64,000 bases of DNA. Origin: Thermodesulfobium narugense DSM 14796. Lineage in GTDB: Bacteria > Thermodesulfobiota > Thermodesulfobiia > Thermodesulfobiales > Thermodesulfobiaceae. The stretch's first letter is position 1, and every line of letters starts with the position of its first letter. Below the pieces are notes generated by a model, which did not search any database, had not been told where the DNA came from, and saw only the letters and a program-made list of their open reading frames with translations. Below are positions 3,404-14,868 of this stretch, piece by piece. The DNA lies in assembly GCF_000212395.1 (NCBI RefSeq), contig NC_015499.1, positions 337,501 to 401,500 of the forward strand, written 5' to 3'. The position numbers were made by a program, and so were the translations under genes.

Positions 3404-3474
3404 ACTTTATCTCCATTACGATTTTTAGTCTATAATACTATAATATATAGGATCTGTAAAAGAAGGGAGATGTG

Positions 3475-4974
3475 ATGCTTCGATCTCTTGAGCCTTCTAA
3501 TATTGTGATTGAGCGGAAGGGGTCGCATATAATCTCTTCTGATGGGAGGGCTTATGCGCTAAAGGACAATATCTCTCATATAGAGTGGGTTGAAGAAATA
3601 ATAGAAAAAGAGAAACATTTCCTACCTTTTTTAAAAAAGAACGTCAAGACCTTTGTGTTTAGGATTTACTTTCTGGATCAAACAAGTATGCTCCTTCAGG
3701 CCGATGAAAAGTCCTATCTGGACATACTTGCTTTTGCACCATATGTAACAAAATCTGGCGTAGACATTTCTGAAATTAAAAAGTCAAGTGAGAATTTGGA
3801 AGAGAAGCCGTCCTCTAATGAAAGTGTGCAAACTCTTGATGAAAAAAACTCTGAAGAAGATAAATCTGAAAAATTACATGACGAAGAAGAGGTTCTAAAA
3901 ACACAACCAGAGCCTTCTCAAATTGAAAGCGATCTTTATGAAGAGAGGAAAAAGAGGGCACGTACTTGGATCAGGAAGGTTTACGAGTCAAAGTTTGTTA
4001 TAAAATTTCCTGCTTTATTCCAAAAGCTCGAAGAAATCCCTAGATCTTTTAGGAAAATTAATTTTTCAAGTCTTGTTTTTTTTCTAAAATTTAAGAAAGC
4101 TAAACCTAAAGAGCCAAAGATTGAAAGCCTTCATCCATCAAAGGCTGTTAGTTACATAATACCTCTTGTTGCCTTTTTCGTTTCTTTGATGTTAACCTTT
4201 GGAACTTTTATGTTCTTTCAGATTACTACTGCCCATGAACCACCTGATATCGCACCTCCAAGGGTCTCAATTCAAAATCCTCCTAACAATACTGTAATAA
4301 AGGGTTTAAACAATCCTATTGAAATAAGAGTTGAAGCTGTTGATAAAGGAGGTTTGGATAAAGTGAGACTCCTTTTGAATAATCTTACGCTGAGAGTGTG
4401 GTATCCAGGAGAAGATACTGTTTATAAATGGTACCCTGAAAAGATTGGAACTTTTATATTCCAGGCGATAGCTATAAATAAAGCAGGTAATTATGCGGAG
4501 TCTACTCCTGTAAAGGTAATTGTTGAACCGGGAAGTCCTAACGAAAAGAATCTAAGTGACAATCAAGACAATAATGTAGATATGTATGGAAAGGCGTTTA
4601 TAATAAGATATCAGGTACACTTAAAAGAAGCCCCCTATGAATCAGCAAGTAACGTTTCAAATTTGTCATATGGAGATGAGGTTGAGGTATTAGAAAAGAT
4701 AGACCCTTCGCAAGTCAAAGAGGGTGTAGTAATGAGAGACACTGTCGTTAAGAGCGTCGATGGAAATAAAGAAATAAAAGTTTATGCAGGAGAAGGATTT
4801 TCAATTAAAGACAACGTAGGATTGATGTATCAGGCGAAACTTAATAGGGAGAACATTGAAGTTTATATACCTAAATCAGATTCGCGTCTTGCCAATGATA
4901 GCGTGTGGTACAAAGTAAGGACTAAGGATGGAGTTCAAGGTTATATTTCTTCACAATATATTAGATTTTATTAG
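3475..4974 (+). CDS. Membrane-anchored Ig-like / SH3b-domain protein
   Basis: About 499 residues. Residues 1-100 form a cytoplasmic region without recognised motifs; 100-155 are a Glu/Lys/Ser-rich linker; one membrane segment is at about 226-250; an Ig-like (Big/cadherin-type) beta domain covers about 260-350; and an SH3b-like domain ends the protein (about 375-500, closing with the pattern WYKVRTKDG.QGYI.SQYI). The arrangement suggests an anchored protein whose outer part touches the cell wall or another envelope polymer; that role is inferred. ATG at 3475 is preferred over GTG at 3472 because AAGGGAG lies at proper distance. Its last four bases overlap the convergent TPR gene. Confidence 0.8.
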   Translation: MLRSLEPSNIVIERKGSHIISSDGRAYALKDNISHIEWVEEIIEKEKHFLPFLKKNVKTFVFRIYFLDQTSMLLQADEKSYLDILAFAPYVTKSGVDISEIKKSSENLEEKPSSNESVQTLDEKNSEEDKSEKLHDEEEVLKTQPEPSQIESDLYEERKKRARTWIRKVYESKFVIKFPALFQKLEEIPRSFRKINFSSLVFFLKFKKAKPKEPKIESLHPSKAVSYIIPLVAFFVSLMLTFGTFMFFQITTAHEPPDIAPPRVSIQNPPNNTVIKGLNNPIEIRVEAVDKGGLDKVRLLLNNLTLRVWYPGEDTVYKWYPEKIGTFIFQAIAINKAGNYAESTPVKVIVEPGSPNEKNLSDNQDNNVDMYGKAFIIRYQVHLKEAPYESASNVSNLSYGDEVEVLEKIDPSQVKEGVVMRDTVVKSVDGNKEIKVYAGEGFSIKDNVGLMYQAKLNRENIEVYIPKSDSRLANDSVWYKVRTKDGVQGYISSQYIRFY

Positions 4975-5798
4975 ATATTTATAATTTCTCCAATCTTGTT
5001 TAGCCAATATCTTACTTCCTCATTTGCTCCAAATTTAGCTATAAGAGATCTTGTTTCTGTTAGAATTTGAGTTATAGAGTTTTGATTTTTGCCTGATGCA
5101 AGGGTAGCTATGATTATATAGTAAATTAATCTCATATGGGTGCCTAAAATTTTTAAGTTATCTGAATTTAGCAATTCTCTTGACTTTGAAAGCGCTATGT
5201 TGAAGTTATATGCGGATTCAAAAAATTTTTCTTCTTCCATGAGAAAAAGTCCTTTTTCAATTAACGCGTTAATAAGTGCAAACGCGTGTTTTGGGTTGTT
5301 TTCCTTGTTTAGCAGAGAAATTGCTCTATTTATATCTTCTAACGATTCATTCTTTAGACCTTGTTTCTTGAACAGTGCGCTTCTGTTCAGAAAAGTTTGA
5401 GAGAGCTTTATCGAATTATCGTTACTTTGTAAATTCTGTAGGATCTCAATAGCTGTGTTAAAATCTTTTAAAGATGAGTCAAAATTTTCAAGATAAAAAT
5501 AATTTAATCCTCTGTGAATTAAAAGTTTGGCAATTTGTTCATCATTGTTTGCTGATATACTACTTTTTTCTTCAATAGCTCTATTTATGTCCTCGAGTGC
5601 CTCTGTATTTTTCCCCATAACAGTTAGTATAAAACTTCTTGTATCAAGTAGATCTATCAAAAAATTTGAAGTAATTTCTATTTGATTAGCATCTACCAAG
5701 TTAAAGATATAGTTAATTTTGTCCAGCGCTTCTTGAAAGTTATTGGACTCAATATCCTTATTAATTTCTTTGAAAGAATTTTCTAGATTAAATTCCAT
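4971..5798 (-). CDS. TPR-repeat protein
   Basis: 275 residues, almost entirely helical, without signal peptide or membrane segment. Several 34-residue TPR-like units can be followed, for example the ALEDINRAIEE, SLKDFNTAIEIL and SLEDINRAISLL helices spaced through residues 70-170. TPR proteins are binding scaffolds; the partner is unknown. It is the last gene of the minus-strand polyphosphate array, 11 bases after the WD40 gene, and very probably co-transcribed with it. The convergent overlap with the upstream SH3b gene leaves no room for a separate terminator. Confidence 0.8.
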   Translation of the reverse strand: MEFNLENSFKEINKDIESNNFQEALDKINYIFNLVDANQIEITSNFLIDLLDTRSFILTVMGKNTEALEDINRAIEEKSSISANNDEQIAKLLIHRGLNYFYLENFDSSLKDFNTAIEILQNLQSNDNSIKLSQTFLNRSALFKKQGLKNESLEDINRAISLLNKENNPKHAFALINALIEKGLFLMEEEKFFESAYNFNIALSKSRELLNSDNLKILGTHMRLIYYIIIATLASGKNQNSITQILTETRSLIAKFGANEEVRYWLNKIGEIINI

Positions 5799-5809
5799 TT
5801 AGAACCTCG

Positions 5810-7663
5810 TTAAGAATAAATATAGTCAACCACCATCCAAACACACAGTCTTTCATCATCTGACGAGGATATTAGAAATTTATCGTCTTCCGATATATAT
5901 ATCTTTCTAATAATATCGTAATGTCCATTAAGAATTTTTACGATCTTATTTTTTCTTAGATCTAGAACGTATATCTTTTCATCAGATCCGCCAAAGAATA
6001 GATGTGTGCCATTTGAGCTTATACACATGTCGTTTATGTCAATAAAGTCTGTTTGATACGAAAATACAAGATTTCCACTATCAATTGAATATGCTCTTAT
6101 TGTAGGATCCTTTTTCGTTGATCCCACGAACAAGAACTTACTATTTGGAGAAAATAATAAAGAATTTATATGGTTTAATCCTTCTAATTTTCTCTTTATT
6201 TCTTTTGAATCTATATCTATTATCTTTAGTATAAGATTGTCATTAATCCTTTGAGTGAAAGCTATCAGTTCGCTATTAGGAGATACTGCAACGCGATCTA
6301 CGGTCAATTCGGGTGAAACTGACTTTACAAACGACTGTTTATCAATTGACCAAAGTTTTAACGTGTTTGACCCTATTACGAGATATCTTAGATCAGGAGA
6401 AAAGGTGAAAGTATTAACTTGATCATCTTTAATTGCAAATTCTTGTATTGTGCTGTTCGATTGTGTGTTAATAATTTTTATTTTATTTTTATCCTTTAAA
6501 GTAGCTAGAAGTTTAGAATTAAAAGACAATGTTGAAAAGATTATCAGGGATTCTTTAAGTGTGTTTTCATAAGTTATATTCATTTTATTATATAAATCAA
6601 ATTTTACTAACTTTGACTCCCACCTTGGTTTTACGAAAAGGCAAACTGCTTCGTTTTTTTCTGTAAAAGAGGCAGAGCTCAGAAAATATCCGTTGTGTGA
6701 GAATGAATCCCTTTCATCTGATTTGAAGCTAATAGAAATATTAAGCCTATCTATTTTAGATGCAGGAAGCCAAATTTTCAAAAAACCATTTTTATATGTA
6801 ATTAAAGATGATAGGTTTCCATTATTGCTAAAGGTTAGATTAACTAATTGGCCACAAATTTTTTGTTTGAAAATAGGTTCGTTGTTTGCATTAAGTTCTT
6901 TGTTTGTCCACCAAAAACTTATGTATTCGTCGAAATCTTCTATTACTAAAAGAGTTTTGTCTTTGGAGAAGAAAGCGCTTTTTGGTTTCGAATCTACAAG
7001 AGGGAGACTGCAAGATTTTGATGGATCAACTGTATTTATTATGCTTAGGCCTAAGTTTTCGGATCTAAGAGCTATGTATTCAAGGTCATCAGAAGAACCT
7101 ATAAGATAGCTATTAGTTGGGAGGATCTTTGGTAGTGATAGGCTGTTTGAATGAATTGAATATATCATAAAAGAATAATGATCTTCTAGTTTTCCGGTTA
7201 AAAGGATGTCATTTTTTAATACGATCTCTTCTAAGACAAAGTTTTTTGGAAGAGGAATATCTAAAATTGTGTCTTTTTTCTCAAGACTGAAAATCGATAT
7301 TTTATCTTGGGAAGAAAGTCCAACTATAAATTTATCGTTAAAATCAGCTAAGTATATATCAGATGCAATAATTTCTGGTTTTGATTTATCAAAATCTATA
7401 ATTTTTACTTGGTTAGATAGGGTTTTATAAACAACAAAATTTTTAGAGCTTATATATATTTTTGTAGAAGGGGTGTCTTGCCAGGTTTTTAGTATTTTTT
7501 CTTCGTATGTAGAAAATATATTATAGTAACCCCTCAACGAGAAACAGACAAGTTTGTTGTCGTCAGAGCAGGATAAGAGGTCTATCTTCCCAATGTCAAA
7601 TTTACCAGACAGAAATAGAGATCTTTGATTTGATAGTTTCAAAAAATATGAAGCTGCATCCAT
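5810..7663 (-). CDS. WD40-type beta-propeller protein
   Basis: About 617 residues made of repeated beta-strand blades. Typical WD40 endings occur towards the C-terminus (LKLWSID, IYVLDLR, DDERLCVWMV), each about 40 residues apart; the N-terminal half is more diverged. The length would suit two seven-bladed propellers. There is no signal peptide, so it is probably a cytoplasmic scaffold. ATG at 7663, six bases after the CYTH-CHAD stop, is preferred over the in-frame TTG at 7669. The tight spacing shows co-transcription with the polyphosphate genes. The function is unknown; a polyphosphate-related scaffold is inference from gene order only. Confidence 0.82.
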   Translation of the reverse strand: MDAASYFLKLSNQRSLFLSGKFDIGKIDLLSCSDDNKLVCFSLRGYYNIFSTYEEKILKTWQDTPSTKIYISSKNFVVYKTLSNQVKIIDFDKSKPEIIASDIYLADFNDKFIVGLSSQDKISIFSLEKKDTILDIPLPKNFVLEEIVLKNDILLTGKLEDHYSFMIYSIHSNSLSLPKILPTNSYLIGSSDDLEYIALRSENLGLSIINTVDPSKSCSLPLVDSKPKSAFFSKDKTLLVIEDFDEYISFWWTNKELNANNEPIFKQKICGQLVNLTFSNNGNLSSLITYKNGFLKIWLPASKIDRLNISISFKSDERDSFSHNGYFLSSASFTEKNEAVCLFVKPRWESKLVKFDLYNKMNITYENTLKESLIIFSTLSFNSKLLATLKDKNKIKIINTQSNSTIQEFAIKDDQVNTFTFSPDLRYLVIGSNTLKLWSIDKQSFVKSVSPELTVDRVAVSPNSELIAFTQRINDNLILKIIDIDSKEIKRKLEGLNHINSLLFSPNSKFLFVGSTKKDPTIRAYSIDSGNLVFSYQTDFIDINDMCISSNGTHLFFGGSDEKIYVLDLRKNKIVKILNGHYDIIRKIYISEDDKFLISSSDDERLCVWMVVDYIYS

Positions 7664-7669
7664 AAACAA

Positions 7670-9190
7670 TCACTCGATGAAAAGTTTTGCCTGGTCTTTG
7701 AACTTTTTCCATTGTTTTTCCAGATCGCTTTTAAGGCTTTGATCGCTGTGAAGCCTGTAACCCAATAACCAGCCACTTTCTTTGTGTATTTCAGGCTCGC
7801 TTGAAGATGAGATCAAGTTTTCTAAATAAACCGAAAAGGTTTGGGTGTCATGAATATAGCCTAAAATGTCCTGAATCTTCTTTAACCTTGAAATCATATC
7901 TTTTGTGCTGGGCTTTAATGCAAAAGAAAAGGTTTCAAGAGCATATCTTAGATTTTTTGACGCTATTCTTAGTTTGTGTAGATCGCTTTCATTGTTAAAG
8001 TCAGTTTTTTTCAATCTTTTTAAAGTTTTTCTAATCCATGTGCTCAATCTTTCTTTAACAAATTTTTTCAGTTTTAAATTTACAGAATCGTCTACAAGAA
8101 AGGCTCCTTCTAACAACCAGTACCAAAAACCTAAAAATAAACTGGTAAATTTTCCTTCTGAGAAAAATGGATAGATCTGATTTAACTTATTTTGCCTTTC
8201 TTCTAATAGCTTTATGGTAAGAGTAGAGTTTTTCAAATTTTCCTGTTTTGTTGTGGAAAGAAAACTTCTCCATTCTTCTATTAATACATCCGTTTCTCTA
8301 AGAGAATTAGTCAGCTCAGTAATGCGATCGAATTCTTCCAACCAATGGTCAAGATGTTCTTGTTCTATTAGAGGTTTACCAAATTTCAACAGTGTCCTTA
8401 TTTTTCTGATGGATACCCTAAAGTCATGAAGATTGTCAAAGTTTTCAGGGTTTTCGACAAATTTATTGTGATATAAGATTAGGTCTTGAAGCTTTTCTAT
8501 CAATTCGTTTTGGAACCCTTCTTCAGCTATTACATCTGGGTCTCTTTCTTTTTGAAGTTCGAATTTCGGTTCAAGGTTTGCAAGCATCATGCCTCTACAA
8601 AATTTACTCCTTGGCTCTAACAAGAAATTAAATGATTTTGAAAGCTCTTCTGCAAGTTTTAAAATACAAGATATATTCCCTTCTTTAAGCTCTATTTCCA
8701 CTTCACAAAAATCTTCTGTTTTTTCTTTTGCAATAATCTTGCCCACGTCAATTGCTACCTCAAGTACACTCCTATCTTCATATGTATAAATAGCTACGCT
8801 CCTGTCAAAAACTGTCTCAAATATAGGCATTAATTCAAACTTTGATTTTGTATCCTTGATGAAGCTCTTTAAATGTGAATTTCTGAGGACTGCAAGATCT
8901 GGTTTTTCGTCTTGAAGCTCAACGTTGTATTCCTTTCTTCTTGAAAAACCTCCATGGGAGTTTCCTGTTACTTTTACTGTCTGAACCCAGGTTCCATCTT
9001 CTGATCTTGTTCTAAAAATTATTCCTGAATTTAACAGGGTGTTTTCTTCAGTATCATAATATATTGAATGGATTTTCTTTCTTTGCCAGTCGTTTTTTAA
9101 AGAGTTAAATATTGGAAGCGAATATATGTCATCTATTTTTTCAGGAAAAATGCATCTTAGCTTTAACTCAATTTCTATATTTGTATTCAT
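7670..9190 (-). CDS. CYTH-CHAD domain protein (triphosphate tunnel / polyphosphate-binding)
   Basis: 506 residues. The N-terminal CYTH domain (about 1-205) starts with the signature ExExK (E6, E8, K10) that binds triphosphate and metal in triphosphate tunnel enzymes; relatives hydrolyse inorganic triphosphate or act as class IV adenylate cyclases. The C-terminal CHAD domain (about 225-506) has its two helical repeats with conserved basic faces (HDFRVSIRKIRTLLK and LHKLRIASKNLRYALE); CHAD domains bind polyphosphate. A strong AAGGAGG precedes the ATG. It sits between an exopolyphosphatase-like gene and the WD40 gene, fitting a polyphosphate role. Confidence 0.93.
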   Translation of the reverse strand: MNTNIEIELKLRCIFPEKIDDIYSLPIFNSLKNDWQRKKIHSIYYDTEENTLLNSGIIFRTRSEDGTWVQTVKVTGNSHGGFSRRKEYNVELQDEKPDLAVLRNSHLKSFIKDTKSKFELMPIFETVFDRSVAIYTYEDRSVLEVAIDVGKIIAKEKTEDFCEVEIELKEGNISCILKLAEELSKSFNFLLEPRSKFCRGMMLANLEPKFELQKERDPDVIAEEGFQNELIEKLQDLILYHNKFVENPENFDNLHDFRVSIRKIRTLLKFGKPLIEQEHLDHWLEEFDRITELTNSLRETDVLIEEWRSFLSTTKQENLKNSTLTIKLLEERQNKLNQIYPFFSEGKFTSLFLGFWYWLLEGAFLVDDSVNLKLKKFVKERLSTWIRKTLKRLKKTDFNNESDLHKLRIASKNLRYALETFSFALKPSTKDMISRLKKIQDILGYIHDTQTFSVYLENLISSSSEPEIHKESGWLLGYRLHSDQSLKSDLEKQWKKFKDQAKLFIE

Positions 9191-9268
9191 TTTTCCTCCT
9201 TTTGAAAATCATTAATAAACTAAGAGAGCGGATGTTCAACTCAAACATTATACATTATCAAGCTTTAA

Positions 9269-10801
9269 TTAGGCTTCTCTTACAATCCTAAGATCTTTGC
9301 CAAATAGTTTTTTAAATAGCTTTGCAGATTTTGAGAGTTCTAATATTTCGGTTTCTAAATCGTAATTCTGGTTGTTACTGATTATCTTAAAAATTACATC
9401 ACTATTTTTTATTTTTATTTTTACAGAATTTATGGCAAAACATTCACAAGTTTCTAATTGTTCGGCAAGTCTTAAAAACATCGAAAGCTTTATCAAATCC
9501 TTGAATTGTTTGCTGGTTATAAAAGATTCGTTGGGAAGTTGTTGGAATTTTATTTTATTCTCATGAAAGAGACAGATGTATGAACATCTCACAAGGTCTT
9601 TAGGTGATATTCCATATATAGGTAAATTCTGGATCAGATAGGCGCCATGTTTTGCGTGGTTATATGGATCCACATACTTTCCAATGTCGTGTAAGAAGGA
9701 AGCAATTTCTAATATTTTTCTGTCTTTGTCTTCAAAGTTGTGGAGCGGTTTTAACTGATCGAATATTGAAAGGCTGTGTTCTGTTACCTTTTTTGCGTGA
9801 TTTACATCTAAGAAATACAAGTTTGCAATATTTTCTAAACTGGCCTTTAAAATATCATCATATATTAGAGGAAAAGCTTTGAAGTCTTTGTGCAGTGAGC
9901 TAAATATTATCCCTTCCTTAAGGCCGTTTCCACTGACTATAAAGTTATTAGAATCTGTAATGTCAAACAGGACCTTTAGAGGTGCCATGCCAGCTAAAAT
10001 TATGTCAGATCGTTGTTTTGAAAGACCTTCAATGTTTTTTCTATTTTTTGAACTTAGGCTTGCTATATATGAATAAATCTGAAAAACTTCATTTTTTGTA
10101 AGTTCGTAATGGTGCAATTTTAGTGAAAACCACTTATGAAGAGCCCTGTGTATTTTTGCAAAAGTTCTGTTTGATCCGCCTATGCCCACAATTGGTAATT
10201 GAGACATTTTAAGACTTTTAAGCCAAGGGACATTTTGGAATTCTCTTATTAGAAAACTTTCTATATTTCTTGTATCGCAAATTTCTTTTGTTTCAGGAAA
10301 GATGTCTGTAAGGTTTACGCTTCCATATGGAAGTGAAACGAAATTCTCTATTTTTCTGTTTAAAACGTAAGTGATTTCTGTGCTTGCTCCTCCTGTATCT
10401 ATAAGGATAAAATCTTTCAAGTTTACTGTATTTAGAACTCCAAGATAACCGTAGTATGACTCTTCTCTTTCAGATATAGTCTTGAAAGGTATAAAGGTTT
10501 CCTTAAAAATAAGATCCAGAACGTCTTTGCCATTCTTTGAATTTCTTATACATGCGGTAGCTACTGCAATAATTTTTTTTACGTTATAGAATTCTATTAT
10601 CTTTTTAAAGGTCTTGAGCGTTTGAATGGCTCTTTTAGTAGGTTTTTCCTGTATTATATTATTTTTATTAAAGCCTTCAGAGAGCCTTACTTGTTCCTTT
10701 TTTTCCTCTATTATTCTAAAACTATTATTTTCGTTAACCTCTATAATTCCAAGTCTTATGGAGTTTGAACCAAGGTCTATAACAGATAGTTTTTCTCCCA
10801 T
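9269..10801 (-). CDS. Ppx/GppA phosphatase with C-terminal HD domain (exopolyphosphatase-like, copy 1)
   Basis: 510 residues. It has an ASKHA-type ATPase fold with phosphate motifs VIDLGSNSIRLG (7-18) and LIDTGGASTE (133-142), the acidic ISEREES segment near 109-115 where the family's catalytic glutamate lies, and the conserved QRSDIILAG block near 263-271. A C-terminal HD-type domain carries FLHDIGKY (H371, D372). Family members release phosphate from polyphosphate ends or hydrolyse pppGpp; which one applies here cannot be seen. It starts one base after the ppk1 stop, so synthesis and breakdown enzymes are co-expressed. It keeps more of the family motifs than the second copy at 12972. Confidence 0.9.
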   Translation of the reverse strand: MGEKLSVIDLGSNSIRLGIIEVNENNSFRIIEEKKEQVRLSEGFNKNNIIQEKPTKRAIQTLKTFKKIIEFYNVKKIIAVATACIRNSKNGKDVLDLIFKETFIPFKTISEREESYYGYLGVLNTVNLKDFILIDTGGASTEITYVLNRKIENFVSLPYGSVNLTDIFPETKEICDTRNIESFLIREFQNVPWLKSLKMSQLPIVGIGGSNRTFAKIHRALHKWFSLKLHHYELTKNEVFQIYSYIASLSSKNRKNIEGLSKQRSDIILAGMAPLKVLFDITDSNNFIVSGNGLKEGIIFSSLHKDFKAFPLIYDDILKASLENIANLYFLDVNHAKKVTEHSLSIFDQLKPLHNFEDKDRKILEIASFLHDIGKYVDPYNHAKHGAYLIQNLPIYGISPKDLVRCSYICLFHENKIKFQQLPNESFITSKQFKDLIKLSMFLRLAEQLETCECFAINSVKIKIKNSDVIFKIISNNQNYDLETEILELSKSAKLFKKLFGKDLRIVREA

Positions 10802-10802
10802 T

Positions 10803-12968
10803 TTATATAGCTATCTCGTCATCAAAATTCTGAATTGGGACGAATTCAAGACTTTTTATTGCCTTTATCTCCTTATTTTTTAATTCAGCGTTCTTTAATA
10901 TGGTTTCGTACAAAAGTATCTGACTGTCAATTTTATTCTGTGTGCTTTGTATAACTCTTACATACGTCCCATCTTCCCTAAGCTCTCTGGCTTTTGTATT
11001 ATCTTTAAGCATAATATTTAAACATCTTTTTATTCGCTCTTTCAATTGCTCGTTTTCAACAGGAAATATTGTTTCAATTCTTCTATCAAGATTTCTGGGC
11101 ATCCAATCAGCGCTGGAAAGATATACCTCTTCGTTTGAATCGTTTTTAAAGTAAAATATTCTGCTGTGTTCTAAAAACCTTCCCACTATGCTGATTACCC
11201 TTATATTTTCACTAATGCCTTTAATACCAGGTCTCAAACAACATATTCCCCTTACAATAAGGTCTATTTTAACCCCTTTTGAGGAGGCATTGTATAATTC
11301 TTCTATAATTTCGTCGTCAACTAGAGCGTTCATCTTGGCAATAATATGACCGTTTGATTTGTACTTTGCCTCTCTTCTTATTAATCTAACTAGCTTTTCT
11401 CTTAAATTAATGGGGGATACGCCTATTTTGTACCAATGACTTGGCTGCGAAAGACCTGTTAAGGTGTTAAAAAGATTTGATACGTCAGTTCCAAAGTAGA
11501 CATTACTAGTAAATAGGCTAACATCTGTGTATAGCTTTGCAGTATTTTCGTTGTAATTTCCAGTCGAAAGGTGCACGTATCTTCTTATTGTGCCTTCTTC
11601 CTTTCTTACTACAAGGATAGCTTTCGAATGAACTTTTAAATGAGCTAGTCCGTATACTACATGACATCCTGCCTTTTCCAGCTTTTTTGCCCAATTTATG
11701 TTATTTTCTTCATCAAAGCGTGCTTTTAGTTCAATTACTACTGTGACTTGTTTGCCATTATCTGCTGCTTCTTCTAAGGCCTTTACTATAGGAGAATTTT
11801 TGGTAACCCTATATAAAGTCATTTTTATTGCTAAAACGTCAGGGTCTTGAGCTGCAGTGCGGACAAATTCTATGATTTTTTCAAAACTTTCAAAAGGCGT
11901 GTGTATTAAAATATCTTTTTCTTTAATAAGATCAAATATTGATTTTTCTTCAGCAACCAAAAAGTCAATAGGTTTTACTGGTGGTAAGGGTTTATCTTTG
12001 AGGTGCCTGAAGGCAGGATTTTCTTGATTGGCAAATTTCATTAAGAACGTATAGTCTAAAGGACCTTCTATCTTGTACACGTCTTCTTCGTCAAGCTCGA
12101 AATTTTCTTTCAAAAAATCTTCTAAAATTTCTGGGCAATCTCTGCTTATTTCAAGTCTTACTACTTCACCGTATCTTCTTCTCTTCAAGGACTTTTCAAT
12201 CTCTTCTAATATGTCTTCAGCAATTTGTTCGTCAATAGTCAAATCTGCATCCCTTGTAATTCTGAAAATAGAACTGTGAATTATTTCTTGATTGTTAAAT
12301 AGATCGCTTAAGTGATGAATTATAATGTCTTCCAACATTATAAAGCAATAATTATCATTTTCGGATGGTAAAGCAATAAACCTATCTAAGACGCTGGGAA
12401 CTTGGATTATTGCAAAAACATCTTCTCTCTTTATTTTTTGATTCTTGTTTTTTACCAAATAATTGGAGTTAGCTCTCAGTAGGACAAATATATTTAGCGT
12501 TCTATTTTGGATAAAAGGGAAAGGTCTTGAATTGTCTACTGCCATAGGGGTAAGAACGGGATAAATAATGTTTTTATAATATTTCTGTACAAAATTTAAC
12601 TGATTTGAATTTAGCTCGTTAATTTTTAGTATGTGTATATTGTTTTGCTTTAAAAGCGGGATAAGCTCTTCTAAAAAGAGTTTTTGCTGATCTTTAGAAA
12701 TCGTATGTGCCTTTAGAGTTATTTTTTTATAAAGTTCTTTTGGCGTTAGCCCTGATGAGTCCTGAAAAATAAAGTCATCTAATACCTTGTCTATAATCGA
12801 ACTGACCCTGATCATAAAGAATTCATCCATATTAGAGCTAACTATGGAAAGGAATTTTAATCTCTCAAAAAGCTTATTATTAGGATCTTGTGCCTCCTCT
12901 AAAACTCTCTTGTTGAATTCCAGAAGAGACAGTTCACGATTTATGTTGTATATTCGTTCTCTGATCAA
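10803..12968 (-). CDS. ppk1: Polyphosphate kinase 1
   Basis: 721 residues, full length for PPK1. It transfers the terminal phosphate of ATP reversibly to inorganic polyphosphate. The opening YNINRELSLLEFN is the classic N-domain start. The two histidines of the phospholipase-D-like catalytic domains are present: H447 in LKVHSK (the position of the phosphorylated His435 in E. coli) and H466 in YVHLSTGNYNE, separated by the usual 19 residues. A TTG start at 12968 lies just after the upstream stop, suggesting coupling. It is flanked on both sides by Ppx/GppA-HD genes. Confidence 0.97.
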   Translation of the reverse strand: MIRERIYNINRELSLLEFNKRVLEEAQDPNNKLFERLKFLSIVSSNMDEFFMIRVSSIIDKVLDDFIFQDSSGLTPKELYKKITLKAHTISKDQQKLFLEELIPLLKQNNIHILKINELNSNQLNFVQKYYKNIIYPVLTPMAVDNSRPFPFIQNRTLNIFVLLRANSNYLVKNKNQKIKREDVFAIIQVPSVLDRFIALPSENDNYCFIMLEDIIIHHLSDLFNNQEIIHSSIFRITRDADLTIDEQIAEDILEEIEKSLKRRRYGEVVRLEISRDCPEILEDFLKENFELDEEDVYKIEGPLDYTFLMKFANQENPAFRHLKDKPLPPVKPIDFLVAEEKSIFDLIKEKDILIHTPFESFEKIIEFVRTAAQDPDVLAIKMTLYRVTKNSPIVKALEEAADNGKQVTVVIELKARFDEENNINWAKKLEKAGCHVVYGLAHLKVHSKAILVVRKEEGTIRRYVHLSTGNYNENTAKLYTDVSLFTSNVYFGTDVSNLFNTLTGLSQPSHWYKIGVSPINLREKLVRLIRREAKYKSNGHIIAKMNALVDDEIIEELYNASSKGVKIDLIVRGICCLRPGIKGISENIRVISIVGRFLEHSRIFYFKNDSNEEVYLSSADWMPRNLDRRIETIFPVENEQLKERIKRCLNIMLKDNTKARELREDGTYVRVIQSTQNKIDSQILLYETILKNAELKNKEIKAIKSLEFVPIQNFDDEIAI

Positions 12969-12971
12969 TTT

Positions 12972-14540
12972 CTAAACCACCTTAAGTATAGGAATAAGAC
13001 CAAAAATCCTTCTAAAAAATATGGCTTCATTATTAAAGTGCCACTTTTCAAGCAATATATCTTCTCGAGTCATGGCTCTAAATATTAAATAGTGATCCTC
13101 AATGTCAAGTTTTATGTCGTGAATCTTCCCTTTTTGTGAGGAATCGAGGGCATTTGAAAGTTTTAGTATGGCCGCGATTTTAGTAATCGTTAGCCTATCT
13201 TTGATTGTCTTGCAATTAAATGAACAATCCTTTTCATCTGGGTCTTTCTTTTGGTATATTTTCACTGAGTTTGCAATAATATCTCTTTCCTCACAGCTAA
13301 GTCCTGGAATTTTTACAGAATTTATAATGCTGTATGAGTGTTCTCCTGGATCGTTTACGTCAATGACTTTACCTACATCGTGTAAGATACATGCCACCTT
13401 TAGAAGAAGCTTTTCTTTTTCTCCCATTGCATGGTAATCTTTAGTGTGTTCAAATATTGAAACCGCGAACCTTAACATCCTTTTTGATATATTGACGTCC
13501 CTTGAGTATTTTTTTGCGATGCTTTCTGAAACGCTTAAAATATCGTCTTCATATAAGTCCTCTTCATCTATTAGTATTGAGTTTGCTACTGCACTTCTGA
13601 AAGAAAAGCCCATTATTCCTACTTCTTCAAGTTCTAAGATGTCTATTATCTTTTTGAATATTATTGTTGAGGGCAAGAGTACGTTTGCTACCGGAGGTAT
13701 CAGATTGTAATCTTCTACAAGATTAATTGTTGTTTTGTCCTTTATTTCGCTATAAAATTTTAGCAATTTTTCTTTACTGATATTGCTGATATCTCTTGGT
13801 GGTTCTTCTTTGAAAATTAGATTGTAAATTACTTTGCTTTCTCCTCCAAGTCCAATTGCAAAGTCTATCTTGTAGTTTTTAATTTCCTGAGAAATGGTAT
13901 GCATCTTGCTTTCAATAAATTCATCCAATATGTCAGCAAAATCGAGAGTCTCTCTTTCGAGGTTAGAAAGCAACGCTCTTAGTTTAAGAGATCCAATTTC
14001 AAGATTAGAAGCATATTTGAGCCTATCTCCATCCACTATCATCAACGACAAACCGCCAGAACCAATATCAAAAATTAAAACAGATTTGTTACCAAATAGT
14101 CTTAGATAACAATCATGCCTTTTCATGTACTGATATTTATAAAACGATTCTTCGATTGTCTCTATTAATTTGATATCCAAATCTGTGGCTATTTTTATTC
14201 TTTCTATTACCAGATCGCAATTTTTTGCCTCCCTTATAGCTGTGGAAGCAAAAACCAACGTTTCCTGAACTTCGTAGGTCTTAAATACTTCTTTTAGTTC
14301 TTTGAGAATCTTTGTTAATTGAAGTAGTATTGTATTAGAGATTCTACCTATTGAAAATGTATCCTTTCCGATTGAAAGAGGTTTTTTTATATCTTCTATA
14401 GTTTCAAAAAGTCTATCTTCTTTCCTTTGGGCTATATGTGCTTTAACAAAGTTTGCCCCAATGTCAATAATGCCAATTATTTTTTTTTCTAATTTTGACT
14501 CTTCTTTAAGACATAAGTGACTGTTGTCATTGTTATCCAT
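12972..14540 (-). CDS. Ppx/GppA-HD protein, divergent copy 2
   Basis: About 522 residues with the same architecture as the gene at 9269: an ASKHA N-half with IIDIGANFVKAH and LIFDIGSGGLSLMI phosphate loops, then an HD domain with CILHDVGKV. It departs from the family at several places (for example IDIGAN for the usual IDxGSN, and ETIEESFYKYQY in the catalytic glutamate region), so activity may differ or be regulatory. The open frame extends to a TTG at 14564 inside the upstream gene; ATG at 14540, four bases after that gene's stop, suits translational coupling better. It is followed by ppk1 with three bases between. Confidence 0.85.
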   Translation of the reverse strand: MDNNDNSHLCLKEESKLEKKIIGIIDIGANFVKAHIAQRKEDRLFETIEDIKKPLSIGKDTFSIGRISNTILLQLTKILKELKEVFKTYEVQETLVFASTAIREAKNCDLVIERIKIATDLDIKLIETIEESFYKYQYMKRHDCYLRLFGNKSVLIFDIGSGGLSLMIVDGDRLKYASNLEIGSLKLRALLSNLERETLDFADILDEFIESKMHTISQEIKNYKIDFAIGLGGESKVIYNLIFKEEPPRDISNISKEKLLKFYSEIKDKTTINLVEDYNLIPPVANVLLPSTIIFKKIIDILELEEVGIMGFSFRSAVANSILIDEEDLYEDDILSVSESIAKKYSRDVNISKRMLRFAVSIFEHTKDYHAMGEKEKLLLKVACILHDVGKVIDVNDPGEHSYSIINSVKIPGLSCEERDIIANSVKIYQKKDPDEKDCSFNCKTIKDRLTITKIAAILKLSNALDSSQKGKIHDIKLDIEDHYLIFRAMTREDILLEKWHFNNEAIFFRRIFGLIPILKVV

Positions 14541-14544
14541 AGGA

Positions 14545-14760
14545 TTATAGCTTTTCTTTTTCAAGTTCCTTTAATTTTGAATCAATATTTTTCAGTAAGT
14601 CTTTTGGATCTTTGTTCTTTTTGGTTATCTTCTTAAGCGCTACGTTTGTATTAAATTGTTCTGGGTAAAGCATATAACAGATAATCAAGAGAGCCAAGCT
14701 TCCTGTGAGAGTTCCTAGTAAAAAATATCCAATATTCTTATTTTGTTTCAAGAACAACAC
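14545..14760 (-). CDS. Small single-pass membrane protein, first gene of polyphosphate array
   Basis: 71 residues from a GTG start. One hydrophobic segment (about 10-31, GYFLLGTLTGSLALLIICYM) is followed by a highly charged Lys/Glu-rich helix ending ELEKEKL. The pattern of a glycine-containing membrane segment followed by a charged amphipathic tail recalls YtxH-type small proteins. I do not recognise a specific family. It begins only 17 bases after the tRNA-Ser gene and ends where the second Ppx/GppA gene begins, so it may be the leading cistron of the polyphosphate operon and could help place its products at the membrane (inference). Confidence 0.6.
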   Translation of the reverse strand: MLFLKQNKNIGYFLLGTLTGSLALLIICYMLYPEQFNTNVALKKITKKNKDPKDLLKNIDSKLKELEKEKL

Positions 14761-14776
14761 CTCTTGTTATATTTTT

Positions 14777-14868
14777 TGGCGGAGAGGGTGGGATTCGAAC
14801 CCACGAGCCGAAATTAATCAGCTAACCGCTTTCGAGGCGGTCTCCTTCGGCCGCTCGGACACCTCTCC
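14777..14868 (-). tRNA. tRNA-Ser (anticodon CGA)
   Basis: On the minus strand, 92 bases including an encoded CCA. The acceptor stem GGAGAGG pairs with CCTCTCC; the anticodon arm has loop CTCGAAA giving anticodon CGA; a long variable arm (class II) is present, and GGTTCGAATCC forms the T arm. It lies in the 118-base gap between the secreted-protein gene and the polyphosphate array. It may be transcribed together with the genes downstream. Confidence 0.97.

Follow-up and report, generated by a model that had tools for sequence, protein, structure and literature searches.

The Ppx/GppA-type protein encoded directly upstream of ppk1 in Thermodesulfobium narugense, termed PpxA here, has a degraded phosphatase site and belongs to a single clade of ppk1-coupled pseudo-Ppx proteins. 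From sequence comparison and structure prediction we favor, with a probability of about 0.55, the interpretation that PpxA is a non-catalytic polyphosphate (polyP)-binding (or nucleotide-binding) sensor or regulatory partner of Ppk1 within a polyP module. A wider proposal, which we put forward only tentatively, is that these monophyletic pseudo-exopolyphosphatases serve Thermodesulfobiota, Clostridia, Calditrichota, and further lineages as a dedicated non-catalytic regulatory or polyP-sensing Ppk1 subunit, which would explain how polyP levels are set. To our knowledge, the tuning of Ppk1 is poorly understood in bacteria other than Escherichia coli, and PpxA offers a concrete candidate partner of Ppk1 across a large group of bacteria, many gut Lachnospiraceae among them. 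The new part of this picture is the ppk1-coupled pseudo-Ppx clade, whereas the CHAD/Ppx/ppk1 cluster was already known; no earlier description of an inactive ppk1-linked Ppx was found in the open-access literature searched, and a prior description elsewhere is possible.

The window analyzed here is a stretch of 64,000 nucleotides of the complete T. narugense genome (1,898,865 bases). Open reading frame calls together with Pfam/NCBIfam searches confirmed, at 4971-14751, the seven minus-strand genes that a sequence-only reading had described, with the identities given there (Table 1). Its further description, gaps of 1-12 bases except one of 78, was true in substance: the small gene and ppxA overlap by 20 bases if ppxA starts at the alternative TTG 14564 or are separated by 4 bases if it starts at ATG 14540, and the remaining gaps, read 5' to 3' from ppxA, are 3, 1, 78, 0, and 11 bases. 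This spacing suggests that the array forms a single transcript; promoter- and terminator-like sites in the array were no more numerous than in shuffled sequence, that is, at chance level. For the small gene, TTG 14751 is the more likely start, because the upstream GTG 14760 falls within the ribosome-site-like AGAGGTG, and ATG 7663 is a possible start of the WD40 gene. Both catalytic histidines of Ppk1 (H435 and H592 in E. coli) are kept, and the CYTH-CHAD fusion has the features of a ygiF-like protein as judged from its sequence, with a CHAD domain and a CYTH domain carrying the ExExK motif (EIELK) at residue 6. The only Ppx/GppA genes of the T. narugense genome are the two of the array; PPK2 and a single RelA/SpoT gene are located elsewhere. 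In every congener examined, the array is immediately preceded by the tRNA-Ser(CGA) gene, which the sequence-only reading did not mention and which may share the array promoter. At the other end, the TPR gene overlaps a convergent SH3/Big-domain gene (3472-4974) by 4 bases (4971-4974), an overlap also seen in congeners.

Table 1. Genes of the array and the adjacent tRNA gene, with window positions.
Feature	Position	Strand	Evidence or remark
Small single-pass membrane protein, 68 aa	14545..14751	-	transmembrane segment at about residues 10-28, basic tail; no Pfam family
PpxA, Ppx/GppA-HD protein with degraded ASKHA phosphatase site	12972..14540	-	Ppx-GppA 5.5e-19; domain III/HD 1.3e-18
Ppk1 polyphosphate kinase	10803..12968	-	all four PP_kinase domains; NF003920 3e-282
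PpxB, canonical Ppx/GppA phosphatase with HD-type domain III	9269..10801	-	Ppx-GppA 9.6e-53
CYTH-CHAD fusion	7670..9190	-	CYTH 4.3e-16; CHAD 3.1e-35
WD40 protein	5810..7669	-	WD40 1.2e-16
TPR protein, 275 aa	4971..5798	-	TPR_2 3.7e-10
tRNA-Ser(CGA)	14777..14868	-	25 bases upstream of the array

The residues of the two Ppx paralogues, which are only 22-24% identical, were scored at 11 catalytic positions in E. coli Ppx numbering, with the reference sequence taken from NC_000913.3. PpxB, like E. coli PPX and E. coli GPP, keeps all 11 positions, whereas PpxA keeps six and carries the changes E150S, S148G, G146S, R267V, and S22F. Thus, of the catalytic set R93, E121, D143, E150, S148, and R267, which PpxB combines with the expected fold, PpxA retains only the first three; the other three are missing from PpxA of all four congeners. 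In Mycobacterium tuberculosis PPX, the equivalents of D143 and E150 are predicted metal ligands and those of R93 and E121 are the catalytic pair (PMC3411833). By alignment, E150 corresponds to the residue replaced in the Helicobacter pylori E143A structure 6pc1, and the PDB also lists loss-of-function mutants at such Glu residues from Deinococcus radiodurans (E114A) and Zymomonas mobilis (E137A). PpxA additionally lacks the first HD histidine (IHDD). The predicted fold of PpxA is confident over its full length (pLDDT 88.6, pTM 0.85); the best Foldseek matches are PPX/GppA structures (E 8e-27), and the model has the Ppx-GppA ASKHA fold together with domain III. H. pylori GppA (6pc0-6pc3) and E. 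coli PPX (1u6z) share domain architecture and fold with PpxA, but identity to them is only 17-21%, and PpxA lacks the catalytic Glu mutated in 6pc1. The view of the sequence-only reading that the array holds two candidate breakdown enzymes is therefore not borne out for PpxA, which has lost metal- and substrate-binding residues and groups with other catalytically degraded Ppx proteins in one clade.

Linkage of such proteins to ppk1 recurs in unrelated bacteria. In 71 of 74 ppk1 loci that extend 1.7 kb or more upstream, the gene directly preceding ppk1 belongs to the Ppx family, and in 70 it is of PpxA type. The median gap between the PpxA-type gene and ppk1 is 2 bases, and the two genes overlap in 25 loci. 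A PpxA-type gene also precedes ppk1 in eight additional families. Because sampling relied on a PpxA profile and on the ppk1 loci closest to this one, the estimate of breadth is biased towards relatives. Among Ppx proteins encoded directly upstream of ppk1, 82 of 86 rows lack at least one of R93, E121, D143, and E150, and four are intact; all four residues are present in 38 of 44 rows for Ppx encoded elsewhere. These 86 and 44 rows are not independent, since a few genes are represented twice and many rows come from related Lachnospiraceae, a matter that is handled by the tree. In a Ppx tree built after removal of the catalytic columns and thinning of near-copies, the degraded proteins and a Calditrichales protein that keeps nine of the 11 positions form one clade (bootstrap 100, SH-aLRT 98, present in 200 of the 200 bootstrap trees checked), and another tree in this analysis agrees on it. 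One member, L181, is not linked to ppk1. The sister group (L174, L180, and L182) keeps the catalytic residues and comes from genomes without a detected Ppk1; on this tree, degradation and coupling to ppk1 therefore have a joint origin. On these comparisons, many ppk1-adjoining proteins annotated as exopolyphosphatases are probably not exopolyphosphatases.

In the scheme that we propose, Ppk1 would make polyP from ATP, the intact PpxB would shorten polyP or hydrolyze pppGpp, and the CYTH-CHAD protein would bind polyP through CHAD and hydrolyze short chains through CYTH. PpxA, its own activity presumably lost, would use the retained Ppx/GppA-HD fold to bind polyP or a nucleotide but leave it uncut, and would in this way regulate Ppk1 or act on polyP handling. 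When domains 1 and 2 are missing, E. coli PPX still binds polyP but does not degrade it (PMC5025862), and binding and hydrolysis are therefore separable in this family. Domains III/IV of PpxA have a pI of 6.4 and are not basic, which is of no help to the polyP-binding part of the claim.

It seems to us rather unlikely that PpxA is still an enzyme, be it a slow exopolyphosphatase or pppGpp phosphatase acting via R93, E121, and D143, or a phosphohydrolase acting via its HD domain. Retention of these three residues in T. narugense PpxA makes weak activity possible, and 23 of the 86 degraded members (including L057, L059, L099, and L167-L171) have a complete HD quartet and could thus have some other enzymatic activity. 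Against an enzymatic role stand the loss of E150, S148, and R267 throughout the congeners, the missing first HD histidine of T. narugense PpxA, and, in Lachnospiraceae PpxA, the missing HD aspartate together with E121Q/E150Q. Because the HD and E121/E150 losses vary among members, the clade as a whole has no active site in common. The paired E121Q and E150Q replacements (motif RQDQ) are isosteric Glu-to-Gln changes and occur in 42 of the 86 rows, namely in L062, L063, L087, and other Lachnospiraceae ppk1 loci.

The core of the array consists of Ppk1, the intact PpxB, the CYTH-CHAD protein, and PpxA; the array as a whole represents a known type of polyP cluster in an arrangement specific to the genus. 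CHAD-containing polyP gene clusters are said to have been described by Iyer and Aravind in 2002. In the available text of a later study (Lorenzo-Orts 2019, PMC6537752), CHAD proteins are encoded with polyP enzymes and CHAD binds polyP; those clusters share CHAD and polyP enzymes with the array, but in that part of the text PpxA is not singled out and WD40 is absent. We found CHAD, canonical Ppx, PpxA, and Ppk1 together and co-directional in four unrelated families (G114, G238, G237, and G162), the gene order in Thermodesulfobium being PpxA-Ppk1-PpxB-CHAD. A linked set for polyP synthesis (Ppk1), breakdown (PpxB), and binding (CYTH-CHAD), as first proposed from the sequence, thus recurs outside the genus. 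In the E. coli ppk-ppx operon (L187), ppk1 and an exopolyphosphatase gene are likewise adjacent and co-directional, whereas the array has two Ppx paralogues, the upstream one degraded, plus CYTH-CHAD, WD40, and TPR genes; E. coli Ppx, unlike PpxA, keeps all catalytic residues. M. tuberculosis resembles T. narugense in having two Ppx-GppA paralogues in one genome, PPX1 and Rv1026, one of which is without detectable exopolyphosphatase activity (PMC3411833). However, Rv1026 shows no loss of the predicted metal and catalytic residues, and its alignment to E. coli PPX covers only the N-terminal part of the latter, whereas PpxA has lost such residues and kept all domains.

Comparison with three congeners showed all seven genes in the same order, with G002 having them split across two contigs. 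Omega ranges from 0.04 to 0.16 across the seven genes, which indicates purifying selection throughout; Ppk1 (0.039) and PpxA (0.047) are among the tightest, PpxB is at 0.052, and WD40 (0.13-0.16) is the most relaxed of the array. Identity within the genus is 86-94% for PpxA and 59-90% for the small membrane protein. Given this conservation and selection, all seven are real genes.

The WD40, TPR, and small membrane proteins were initially read as scaffolds and an anchor of an organized polyP body, the seven genes making up one functional system. The common strand, the short gaps, and linkage maintained in the genus at 67-89% identity under purifying selection agree with this reading, but we consider it unlikely, since both flanks of the array are equally syntenic in the genus (ClpC, RadA, DisA, YibE/F, PEGA-like, and tRNA-Ser genes at one end, SH3/Big and GGDEF genes at the other) and the WD40/TPR linkage there is thus uninformative about function. 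The WD40 protein, which probably consists of two beta-propellers (model of medium confidence, pLDDT 65.6), is genus-restricted: among 241 genomes, 237 of them outside the genus, its N-terminal half matches only the genus, apart from one weak 66-residue match. Scanning ppk1 neighborhoods with all seven proteins and a WD40 profile, in 80 stretches (mostly Clostridia, one Calditrichales) and 20 further ones, gave no WD40 gene adjoining ppk1 outside the genus, only unlinked hits. A WD40 gene in L182 was rejected as a linked case, as it lies on the opposite strand in a genome without detected ppk1. The sole TPR gene found beside ppk1 elsewhere, in L177, was likewise set aside as support, as it is absent from the congener L178. 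Linkage of WD40 and TPR genes to ppk1, the check suggested with the initial reading, therefore extends to the genus only and not beyond the synteny of close relatives, and the two genes are genus-specific additions with a putative link to polyP. Least probable is an ordinary ppk1-ppx-CHAD housekeeping cluster in which PpxA is decaying to a pseudogene and the WD40 and TPR genes are bystanders: CHAD-ppx-ppk clusters are indeed known (PMC6537752), but the low omega of PpxA, its high identity within the genus, its full-length confident fold, and its linkage kept across phyla argue against decay.

Several variants of the polyP array were observed, with a His-phosphatase and a ParA/MinD-type ATPase (L167 and L168), with PPK2 (L169), or with a ROK kinase (L171 and L176). 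In L171, the place between CHAD and PpxA that a canonical Ppx would take is occupied by a fusion of a metallophosphatase-like N-terminus with a Ppx/GppA domain III (HD) (L171:8485-9804); this locus was consequently rejected as a fifth CHAD-Ppx-PpxA-Ppk1 array, and PpxA is retained next to ppk1 there despite the replaced canonical Ppx. The ParA/MinD-type ATPase lies between CHAD and Ppx in two unrelated genomes (L167:7566-8312 and L168:2084-2854). McdA positions carboxysomes, and by analogy the ATPase could position polyP granules. In L174, whose genome is without detected Ppk1, a thymidylate-kinase-like gene (L174:12586-13335) adjoins the Ppx/CHAD/His-phosphatase set.
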